From assembly GCA_029573975.1 (NCBI GenBank), contig JAKQBU010000499.1, positions 1-11,154 of the forward strand: a DNA stretch of 11,154 bases, in the 5' to 3' direction. Made by a program: the position numbers and the translations under genes. The DNA comes from Planctomycetota bacterium. Lineage in GTDB: Bacteria > Planctomycetota > Phycisphaerae > Sedimentisphaerales > SM23-30. Numbering within the stretch: the first letter of the stretch is position 1; each line of letters starts with the position of its first letter. The notes below the pieces were generated by a model, which saw nothing but the letters and a program-made list of their open reading frames with translations, made no database searches and was not told the origin of the DNA. Shown here piece after piece: positions 1,486 through 10,981 of this stretch.

Positions 1486-3426
1486 TTATACCGCCCGGCT
1501 GGTCACTCGTTTCGGCGGAAACGCGATTTTTTGCGATAATACCGCCCGAATCGCCTTTTCAATGCCCTGCCGATCCAGTTGAATCTCCGCCAACTGCTCC
1601 AGCCGGCTGGCCTGTTCTATAAATCGGTCCGGAATACCTATTCGCGTGATATTTCGTGTATCAATTTTATGTTCCTGAGCAAATTCCAGGATGGCACTGC
1701 CAAATCCGCCCGGCAGCGCATGATCTTCCAGTATGAATATTGGCATCCCAGCCGCCTTTTCCAGCAAGGGCTGCCAAACGGCCGCTTCCAACGGTTTGGC
1801 AAAACGACCGCTGACCACTCCTGCCTCGATCCCCTCTTCCGCCAGCCGACAGGCGGCTTTCAATGCCTCATAACCCACGGTCCCATAGGCCAGTACCAGG
1901 GCATCCCGGCCTTCCCGCAGTATCGAGGGGCACCCGATCCGAAACGGTTCGCATCGATAATCCGGAACCACCGATCCCATGTCCCCCACCACATCGCGCG
2001 GATAACGGATTACCGCCGCCTTGCCGCACTCCAGCGAACATTCCAACGCCCCGGCCAGTTCCGCCTCGTTCATCGGCGCCATCAACACCAGATTCGGCAG
2101 ACTCCGCAGCAAGGCAATATCACAAAAGCCATGATGCACCGCTCCATCCCCCCCCACCAGCCCGGCCCGGTCCAGACAGAACACCACCGGCAAATCCTGC
2201 AGCGATACTTCCTGAAAAATCTGATCGAAACTCCGCTGCAAAAAGGTTGAGTAGATCGCCACTACCGGCCGCAGCCCCTTTTTCGCCAGTCCCGCCGCGA
2301 TATCCACCGCCGCACTCTCGGCAATGCCTACATCGAGTATCCGCCCGGGAAATCGGCTCCGCAGCGCCGCCAGACCCGTACCATCCGGCATCGCCGCCGT
2401 CAACGCCACCACCCGCGCGTCTTTCTCCATCCTTTCCCCCAGGATCCGCGAAAAAACCGAGGTAAAACTCTGCCCGCTGCTATGGCCAAAACTGGCCGTC
2501 TGACCAGTCACCGTAAACGGATTGGGACTGTGAAACCGGCAGGGATCCTCGCAGGCCGGCGTAAAGCCCCGCCCCTTCTCCGTCTGCACATGCAGAAGAA
2601 TCGGATGATTCACTTCCTTCAAGATCTGAAAAAGCTGAATCAGGGCCGGGATATCATGACCATCCACCGGCCCATAGCTCGGAATCCCCAATTGCTCGAA
2701 CTTCTGCTGACCTTGCAGGGTTGTTTTCAGCCCTCCCTTCAGCCGGCCCAGCGTATCGTGGATGGCATCTCCCACATACGGCAGACTCTTCACCAGCAGC
2801 TTGGTCCGACGGTGCAGATCGTCATAGGACCGTGTCAGCCGCAAATGGGTCAGATAACTGGCGAACGCTCCCTGCGTCTTGTCAATCGCCATCGAGTTGT
2901 CATTCAGAATAATCAGAAGTTGACGATGCAGCAGCGAGGTATTATTCAATCCCTCGAACGATAAACCATTCACGATGCTCGCGTCCCCCACCACCGCTAC
3001 GATCTTTTCGTCGGTATGCTGCAATTGCGCCCCCAGCGCCAGTCCCACCGCCGTAGCTATCGCTGTCCCCGCATGCCCCACCGAAAACTGGTCATACAGG
3101 CTTTCCCGCGGATCGGGAAAGCCGCTAACCCCCCCCTTCTGGCGCAAACGTTCGAAACCCTCCCACCGTCCCGTCAGAATCTTATGCACATAACACTGAT
3201 GGCCCACATCCCACACTATCCGGTCCGTATCGAAGGAAAAAACCCGGTGCAGGGCTATCGTCAGTTCCACAATCCCCAGATTGCTGGCAAGATGACCCCC
3301 ATTTTTGCTCACCGCGGCCTTGATCAGGTTGCGAATCTCCTCCGCCAAAGCTCCCAGTGACTCCGCCGGCAGCCGACGCAGATCGGCAGGCGAATGAATG
3401 CTTTTTACGAATTTCAAATCCATCAT
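1486..3426 (-). CDS. dxs: 1-deoxy-D-xylulose-5-phosphate synthase
   Basis: Thiamine diphosphate enzyme that joins pyruvate and glyceraldehyde-3-phosphate, the first step of the MEP isoprenoid pathway. 646 residues, close to the family norm of about 620-640. Seen in order: GGHLASNLG (43-51), DVGHQ (73-77), the ThDP/Mg site from GD at 147-148 to NDN at 175-177, YGPVDGHD (251-258), the pyrimidine-domain catalytic Glu370 in DVGIAE, YSTFLQRSFDQI (392-403), DRAGLVGGDGAVHHG (419-433) and C-terminal GIPDRFIEQASR. Two motifs differ from the E. coli type: GDASIVNG replaces GDGAMTAG, and ESAAV replaces EQHAV after the catalytic Glu. I recall the first as common in planctomycetes. The start is MM; no strong ribosome-binding site is seen (GGA at about -13), so it may be coupled to ispA, whose stop is 25 nt upstream. 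Confidence 0.95.
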   Translation of the reverse strand: MMDLKFVKSIHSPADLRRLPAESLGALAEEIRNLIKAAVSKNGGHLASNLGIVELTIALHRVFSFDTDRIVWDVGHQCYVHKILTGRWEGFERLRQKGGVSGFPDPRESLYDQFSVGHAGTAIATAVGLALGAQLQHTDEKIVAVVGDASIVNGLSFEGLNNTSLLHRQLLIILNDNSMAIDKTQGAFASYLTHLRLTRSYDDLHRRTKLLVKSLPYVGDAIHDTLGRLKGGLKTTLQGQQKFEQLGIPSYGPVDGHDIPALIQLFQILKEVNHPILLHVQTEKGRGFTPACEDPCRFHSPNPFTVTGQTASFGHSSGQSFTSVFSRILGERMEKDARVVALTAAMPDGTGLAALRSRFPGRILDVGIAESAAVDIAAGLAKKGLRPVVAIYSTFLQRSFDQIFQEVSLQDLPVVFCLDRAGLVGGDGAVHHGFCDIALLRSLPNLVLMAPMNEAELAGALECSLECGKAAVIRYPRDVVGDMGSVVPDYRCEPFRIGCPSILREGRDALVLAYGTVGYEALKAACRLAEEGIEAGVVSGRFAKPLEAAVWQPLLEKAAGMPIFILEDHALPGGFGSAILEFAQEHKIDTRNITRIGIPDRFIEQASRLEQLAEIQLDRQGIEKAIRAVLSQKIAFPPKRVTSRAV

Positions 3427-3451: not shown

Positions 3452-4348
3452 TTATCGTTTTCTCTTGATTAACATACGTACCAGCTCCCGTAAAGGTTCG
3501 GCCCGCTCTCCGAAATCCGCCAGGGCTTCAATTGCTTCCCGCATCAGCGATTCGGCATGCTCCTGCGACTGTTGCAGTCCCATAACCGCCGGATATGTCA
3601 ATTTCCCTGCCTGCATATCTTTTTGGGGGCTTTTGCCCAGTTCCTCTGCCGAACCGGTGATATCCAGTATGTCATCGGCAATCTAGAAGGCCAGCCCGAC
3701 TTTTAAGCCGTAATCCCCCAGCGTATCAATCTCCCGCCGCGCCGCATCGGCACAAATCGCCCCCATCCGCGCCGCCGCCCGAAACATCATCGCTGTCTTG
3801 TGCGTATGAATATACTGCACCGTTTCCAGATCCCCGCTGCGGTTCTGATGGTCCAAATCCTCCACCTGCCCCCCGATCATCCCCCCCGCTCCCGCCGCTT
3901 CGGAAAGTTCCAAAACCAGCTCTTTCACCAGGGCCACCTTGCTGATATGCCGCGCCAGCGTGGTAAATGCATACGTCAGCAGCGCATCCCCCGCCAAAAT
4001 CGCGATCCCATCCCCGAAAACCTTATGATTCGACGGCTGGCCCCGCCGGTAATCGTCATTGTCCATCGCGGGCAGATCGTCATGTATCAGCGAATAGGTA
4101 TGCACCATCTCGATCGCCGCCGCTGCCGGCACCGCAATAATCTCTTCCCCCCCGCAGGCCTGACAGCTCAGAACCACCAGCCCCGGCCGCAGCCGCTTTC
4201 CTCCCGCCCGCAAACTATAAAAAATCGCCTTCCGCAGTGTCTCAGGGATCCCAGACTCACGCGAAAGATACCCTTCTATAGCATTTTCCACCATCTGAGC
4301 AATCTCGGCCAATCGCTGATTTTCGCTCATACCTTGATTTCCTGTCAT
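3452..4348 (-). pseudogene. ispA: Short-chain polyprenyl (farnesyl/geranylgeranyl) diphosphate synthase interrupted by one in-frame TAG
   Basis: Trans-prenyltransferase that condenses IPP with allylic diphosphates. From ATG 4348 the frame reads 221 codons, hits TAG at 3685-3683 (codon 222), then continues in the same frame for 76 codons to TAA at 3454-3452, giving a normal 298-residue length. Before the stop: GGKRLRP (49-55), first aspartate-rich motif HDDLPAMD (89-96), GGQVEDL (159-165) and HTHKT (181-185). After it: IADDILDITGSAEELGKSPQKD, the second aspartate-rich motif (DDILD at 225-229), then LTYP. TAG replaces the conserved Gln of FQIADD. The product ending at 221 would lack the IPP/Mg site and should be inactive. 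AGGTG lies 5 nt before the ATG; Met7 is a weaker alternative. First gene of the operon with dxs. It could be a true nonsense allele, a recoded amber codon or a sequence error. Confidence 0.9.
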
Positions 4349-5045: not shown

Positions 5046-5142
5046 GACACAATATTTTCGCAAAAACAAAACCGCTGCCGTAAATTGTCCCAAAATCAGT
5101 ACCGTACGGTTTCCCCCTCTTCTCCTGAAAAGAAAATCCGAC

Positions 5143-8182: not shown

Positions 8183-8497
8183 TAACCTTGTTTCGTTCCT
8201 GTTGTGTTAAAATAGATAAACTTATTTCTGGTATTATAGCCAAACTATCACGAATTTTTGGCTATGTTGCTGAAAAAAAACGCAAAAATCACCTGTCAAA
8301 CCGCTCTAGCTGCGATTTTCACTTCGTTTCGACTCCTAAGGGGGGTATATTACAAGCAGGAACTTCAAATTGGTATCATTTTTTGACGGAACTGCCAAAA
8401 GTCGATATGGACATTCACAAAAACGGCTCTGAATCCCCAATAACAAGGAATCAAAAAGCTTTTGACGCTGGCGTCTTTTTGCAAGGATAGCGGCTTT
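8183..8497. other. Divergent intergenic region between gpmI and the S41 protease gene
   Basis: No gene is supported in these 315 nt. It contains a perfect TATAAT reading toward gpmI, a 9-bp inverted repeat overlapping it, and on plus a possible promoter TTGACG (8383-8388), 17 nt, TATGGA (8406-8411) toward the protease (5/6 and 3/6, weak). Near the protease start, a small GACG/CGTC hairpin followed by TTTTT (8463-8479) precedes the AAGGA ribosome-binding site. Confidence 0.5.
8233..8265 (-). promoter_or_regulatory. gpmI -10 box with overlapping inverted-repeat operator candidate
   Basis: On minus, TATAAT (8238-8233) is a perfect -10 box; no good -35 hexamer is found at 16-18 nt, which fits an activator-dependent promoter. 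ATAGCCAAA (8236-8244) and TTTGGCTAT (8257-8265) form a perfect 9-bp inverted repeat with a 12-nt gap, so the half-sites are 21 bp apart, two helical turns. No T-run follows on either strand, so it is not a terminator. Confidence 0.45.
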
Positions 8498-10519: not shown

Positions 10520-10633
10520 ATGGCGAAGAAGAAAGTTGCGAAGAAAGCTGCTAAGAAAAAAGTAGCGAAGAAGAAAGTGGCAAAGAAAGCTGCCAAGAAA
10601 CCGGCGAAGAAAAAAGCATGCTGCAAAAAGTAA
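10520..10633 (+). CDS. Lys/Ala-rich histone-like micro-protein, 37 residues
   Basis: ATG 10520 to TAA 10631-10633, 37 codons, below usual gene-caller limits. By my count it has 20 Lys, 10 Ala, 3 Val, 2 Cys, 1 Pro and 1 Met, and no acidic or aromatic residue, so it is extremely basic. Residues 2-15 and 16-29 are a tandem repeat of a 14-residue unit (AKKKVAKKAAKK plus two variable residues). Nine of 14 codons are identical, three differ synonymously and two non-synonymously, which points to an old duplication kept at protein level. It ends ACCKK. The composition resembles histone H1 tails, chlamydial Hc1 and the Lys/Ala tails of some bacterial HU proteins, so nucleic-acid binding or compaction is inferred. 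The strong promoter and exceptional ribosome-binding site indicate high expression. A structured 3' region and terminator follow. The Cys-Cys pair is unexplained; disulfide or metal binding is possible. Confidence 0.7.
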   Translation: MAKKKVAKKAAKKKVAKKKVAKKAAKKPAKKKACCKK

Positions 10634-10814: not shown

Positions 10815-10919
10815 GCTTAACTGCCCGTCATTCGCTATACTAAGGCCCAATGTTAGGAACTTCGGAAATAATATATGTCTAACCTCCATTTTGCAAAACT
10901 TCCGTTAGGAACGTAGAAT
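10813..10919 (+). promoter_or_regulatory. Two candidate promoters and repeated motifs upstream of parA
   Basis: Candidate P1 is TTGCTT (10813-10818), 17 nt, TATACT (10836-10841). Candidate P2 is TTGCAA (10891-10896), 17 nt, TAGAAT (10914-10919). GTTAGGAAC occurs at 10852-10860, just past P1, and at 10904-10912, inside the P2 spacer. CGGAAA occurs at 10863, 10923 and 10962. The repeats suggest operators, possibly for autoregulation by the Par proteins. No canonical parS (TGTTTCACGTGAAACA-like) is seen. Confidence 0.4.
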
Positions 10920-10981
10920 GACCGGAAATCATGGAAAAAATGCCGAAATTGGGTTAATGATCGGAAAGAATTGGTAAAAAG

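Follow-up and report, generated by a model that had tools for sequence, protein, structure and literature searches.

The ispA-type gene on the minus strand of the window (the whole stretch of 11,154 nucleotides analyzed here) is interrupted by a single in-frame TAG, for which an ordinary point mutation or a sequence error, rather than a changed genetic code, is the best explanation. It is highly probable, judging from comparison with related sequences, that one C-to-T change at a presumably ancestral CAG gave rise to this codon, that TAG is an ordinary stop here, and that we are dealing either with an error or with a recent null. The features concerned are:

3452..4348, minus strand: ispA-type short-chain polyprenyl (farnesyl/geranylgeranyl) diphosphate synthase gene with one amber codon inside; 298 codons plus TAA on read-through (NF045485, PF00348)
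3683..3685, minus strand: in-frame TAG, codon 222, at the Gln preceding the second aspartate-rich motif (reading of the frame and alignment)
3683..4348, minus strand: open reading frame under the standard code, 221 amino acids, with the first aspartate-rich motif kept and the second absent (translation; FPPsyn score of 254.6 bits)
3452..3682, minus strand: distal 76 codons, conserved and open, with no ATG, GTG or TTG until codon 245 (translation and comparison)
1486..3426, minus strand: dxs, downstream of ispA and open in the window (comparison with the relative)

Across positions 3452-4348, codon 222 (TAG) and codon 299 (TAA) are the only stops in the frame, and the minus-strand codons around the former read GCC TTC TAG ATT GCC GAT GAC ATA CTG GAT. 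The preliminary description of this DNA had placed the TAG at 3683-3685 in the ispA frame, at the conserved Gln of the second aspartate-rich motif, with 76 codons separating it from the TAA, and all of this was borne out. Residues 15-297 of the read-through product align with solved farnesyl diphosphate synthases (e.g., 7my6), codon 222 corresponds in the alignment to such enzymes to the Gln of FQxxDDILD, and Gln occupies this place in all relatives read. The gene gave a Pfam match to PF00348, and its read-through translation scored 339.4 bits with the FPPsyn model NF045485 against a cut-off of 275, whereas the 221-aa product remained below this cut-off. The latter retains the first aspartate-rich motif (DDLPAMD at residue 90) and is devoid of the second one, DDILD (residues 225-229), which lies 3' of the TAG.

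The nearest genome compared (G001, 78% complete) has 40% of sampled 31-letter words in common with the window and stands in for the window's own genome in the genome-wide checks. Its ispA stretch (L002) is the same as L003 over 3717 bases, with no differences, L003 being a contig of Planctomycetota bacterium isolate UR.bin216 with a coverage of 2.03 given in its title. Identity between the window and this relative amounts to 96.5% over 5056 bases, 97.9% over 4643 bases and 91.6% over another 935 bases, the first two values corresponding to species level by the usual convention; the commonest class of relative-to-window differences is C>T and G>A (70 of 170). In the relative, codon 222 is CAG, and the gene is identical to that of the window at 889 of 921 bases. 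Glutamine is encoded at this codon in all 96 aligned loci (77 CAG, 19 CAA), i.e., in those having a tblastn match at 1e-20 out of 160; the 96 comprise L002, L003 and L146 (one locus in three copies) as well as the second G001 synthase, and some further overlap is possible. The same residue was found at position 222 in 120 of 120 homologous proteins (the best 120 of 7999 scored), as well as in P0002, a protein one residue away from that of L003, and in P0003-P0005. An order-wide search for ispA gave a match in 141 of 161 genomes, with no true internal stop among the matches listed. The genes of G087, G081 and G037, each flagged as having one TAG, carry it two codons 5' of the ATG, show no internal stop and end in TAA. 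Since these three TAGs lie upstream of the start and none is internal among the matches listed, internal stops in ispA are rare in the order, and so is an ispA null.

Under the preferred reading, one C-to-T transition would have converted the Gln codon CAG to TAG, and TAG would then be read as an ordinary stop, yielding a 221-aa product which, as the second aspartate-rich motif is missing from it, is presumably inactive. The preliminary description had also found the rest of the frame to be without decay, and the pN/pS value of ispA against L003, 0.090, agrees with this, being like those of dxs (0.098) and nadK (0.112); doxX and a rubrerythrin-like gene gave 0.140 and 0.128, respectively. Such absence of decay does not discriminate, since a readable codon would account for it just as well as a recent null or an error. 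Relaxed selection 3' of the stop was considered and rejected, as the rise of pN/pS from 0.058 upstream to 0.169 downstream of the TAG was not significant (Fisher p about 0.37, one count in the test on the two halves having been rounded down and one up); Q at residue 259, downstream of the TAG and found in 1 of 120 relatives, may be a weak hint of relaxation. Clustered errors near the TAG were likewise rejected: six differences fall within 3674-3707, yet 42% of random placements match that, and another stretch of equal length holds eight differences, so that the cluster looks like chance. In comparison with the relative, no nonsense change was seen in nadK, dxs, doxX, the rubrerythrin-like gene, gpmI and the S41 protease gene (lysE was left out).

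Within the preferred reading, a wrong base in the metagenomic consensus appears rather probable, and a very recent null allele in the window strain, for which a second synthase may compensate, is a quite real, if somewhat lesser, possibility. Our assessment, previously even, came to favor the error moderately because of the frameshifted dxs consensus of the relative, which makes a consensus error at the window TAG more credible. The relative's dxs is without the five bases found at 2554-2558 in the window (L003 about 3518), and its halves are in different frames. The frameshifted copy, with an open frame of 327 codons, is the sole full match to the dxs N-domain in G001, and the dxs region of the distant relatives L005, L006 and L032 aligns in one frame. 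The deletion probably reflects faulty assembly of a contig with coverage of about 2. It was also considered whether the isoprenoid pathway is being lost in parallel, through ispA in the window and dxs in the relative; two errors of low-depth consensus would be a simpler explanation.

Elsewhere, at 8380-8483, the window carries one member of an interspersed repeat family about 95 bases long. Of the 48 rows obtained in the search of G001, in which 40 of 181 candidates were scored, 44 are copies of this repeat, 78-89% identical. The window copy folds no better than its shuffles (z -0.31), and comparison of the window with Rfam gave no family reaching its gathering score. At window position 5054 the relative carries a 96-base insertion (L003 about 933-1022) matching the same repeat, which the window does not have; given this presence/absence between close relatives, the element may still be mobile or in the course of being lost. 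Perhaps another difference of this kind is located at window 10819-10945, where the relative's contig C50 has a repeat copy between two aligned stretches.

A recent nonsense mutation combined with a second synthase elsewhere had been proposed in the preliminary description; the second synthase was indeed found, in the relative G001, while the mutation itself is graded here as possible. The G001 protein consists of 318 aa, and its best matches among solved structures are octaprenyl and heptaprenyl synthases. In NCBIfam it scored 216.3 bits with IdsA_Meth and 215.3 bits with TIGR02748, all listed models being below their cut-offs, and is probably a medium- or long-chain synthase, with the NCBIfam scores not fixing the length of the product. 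Among the 13 genomes of the bacterial family, 12 gave at least one PF00348 row and 11 gave two or three, some of them being pieces of one gene. UppS was not found in G001 and is present in 12 of the 13 genomes of the family search; as all 12 other family genomes carry it, the incompleteness of G001 likely explains the missing gene.

The TAG had further been described as disabling an essential enzyme. The loss of the second motif was confirmed, and the essentiality proved weaker, as ispA mutants are viable in Staphylococcus aureus. According to the available part of the report on this species, HepT takes over part of the role of IspA in the mutant, and viable ispA mutants have been reported in further species (PMC12345219), whereas growth of Bacillus subtilis, in the available part of another report, required the expression of yqiD, an ispA homologue (PMC1914294). 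The viable S. aureus mutant and the dependence of B. subtilis indicate that some bacteria can live with an ispA null, whereas others pay a price for it.

Another way to retain the enzyme would be an amber suppressor tRNA in the window strain, or a near-cognate Gln-tRNA reading UAG often enough to supply it. The distal part of ispA, with no significant decay, is consistent with such suppression, and so is the presence in the relative of a Gln tRNA with the anticodon CUG, which pairs with UAG as a near-cognate. However, the 26 tRNAs of G001 confirmed by ARAGORN (out of 27 matches) include no suppressor, although this count comes from a genome 78% complete, and all the relatives read are without TAG at codon 222, so that programmed read-through has left no sign; we therefore regard suppression as very unlikely. 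A private amber suppressor tRNA in the window strain, absent from the 97%-identical relative and tolerating UAG at the otherwise invariant ispA Gln, appears less probable still; if true, it would be an early step to stop-codon reassignment in a planctomycete.

Recoding of TAG as glutamine throughout the lineage, as in genetic code 15, was raised in the preliminary description and is hardly credible in the light of the nearest relative. It could be invoked since the TAG occupies a Gln position common to every relative read, with the frame open beyond it, and since the stops of the other eight complete window genes do not include TAG. The 97%-identical relative, however, has CAG at codon 222 and uses TAG as a real stop. 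In a sample of 20 contig stretches of G001 (203,191 bases), 126 non-overlapping ORFs with a length of 150 aa or more were counted, of which 59 terminate in TAA, 52 in TGA and 15 (12%) in TAG; the counting of TAG stops, which had been suggested as a check on recoding, thus turned against it when run in G001. Pfam matches were found in 12 of the 15 TAG-ended ORFs and in none of the other 3, and the median in-frame extension past the stop was 20 codons for TAG, 22.5 for TGA and 13.5 for TAA. Among the genes ending in TAG are ffh and ftsK, in which the C-terminal domains SRP_SPB and FtsK_gamma precede the TAG. With these domains already present and no Pfam match in the extensions, L088 (ftsK, 278-codon extension) and L097 (ffh, 105 codons) were not taken as read-through genes; in the L097 extension the second residue is Met, and this stretch probably represents the following gene. 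G001 also possesses RF1: prfA scored over the curated cut-off, as it did in 18 of the 21 genomes searched, G001 among them, and contains the RF1 motifs PET (PxT) and GGQ. Glutamine tRNAs of G001 have the anticodons CTG and TTG, and the anticodon CUA occurs in none of the 26 confirmed tRNAs of this relative, which is not the window's own genome; considering its completeness of 78%, the missing CUA tRNA is no proof, and stop usage weighs more heavily.

The window itself adds to the case against recoding, as no in-frame TAG occurs in seven other genes holding 69 CAG and 44 CAA (113 Gln codons). The eighth gene is a 37-aa Lys/Ala-rich ORF at 10520-10633, located 3' of an AGGAGG site and presumably resembling a histone-H1-like basic tail peptide. 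The earlier count of stops in these eight genes, six TAA and two TGA, is correct, but as support for recoding it carries little weight: given the 12% TAG usage of the relative (15 of 126), the chance of zero TAG stops in eight genes is about 0.36. It is no easier to accept that ispA works as two pieces, the C-terminal one made by re-initiation: each piece still matches polyprenyl synthase models, but the first start past the TAG, with standard starts considered, is the ATG at codon 245, beyond DDILD, so that neither piece would contain the second aspartate motif.

Taken together, these data favor the preferred reading, a point mutation or sequence error under the ordinary code. Recoding should not be read from an in-frame stop found alone on a metagenomic contig until a close relative, RF1, the tRNAs and stop usage have been consulted. 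Should the allele be real, it would represent a further case of a bacterium losing a short-chain prenyl synthase, with a second synthase perhaps filling in for it.

Genetic code 15 (TAG = Gln) was reported for two crAss-like phages in the available part of the source (PMC9523058). In the part available of an eLife screen of >250,000 genomes, the three mentions of UAG refer to eukaryotic nuclear codes, yeast false calls and ciliate contamination, and the planctomycete word stem is absent from the main text (PMC8629427). The window ispA is similar to code 15 in having one TAG at a Gln site and differs from it in that TAG is an ordinary stop, and a CUA tRNA was not found, in the nearest relative; moreover, as far as the part of the source goes, code 15 was reported in phages, whereas the window case concerns a bacterial metabolic gene. 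With the farnesyl diphosphate synthase subfamily (NF045485; PF00348) the window ispA agrees only when read through (339.4 bits), its actual product differing in being 221 aa long, below the cut-off and without the second aspartate-rich motif. The S. aureus ispA mutant, as described in the available part of its report, is alike if IspA is lost in the window strain, a second prenyl diphosphate synthase (seen in G001) being available in both cases; the difference is that here this synthase is known from a relative, and its NCBIfam scores lie below the cut-offs and do not fix its class.
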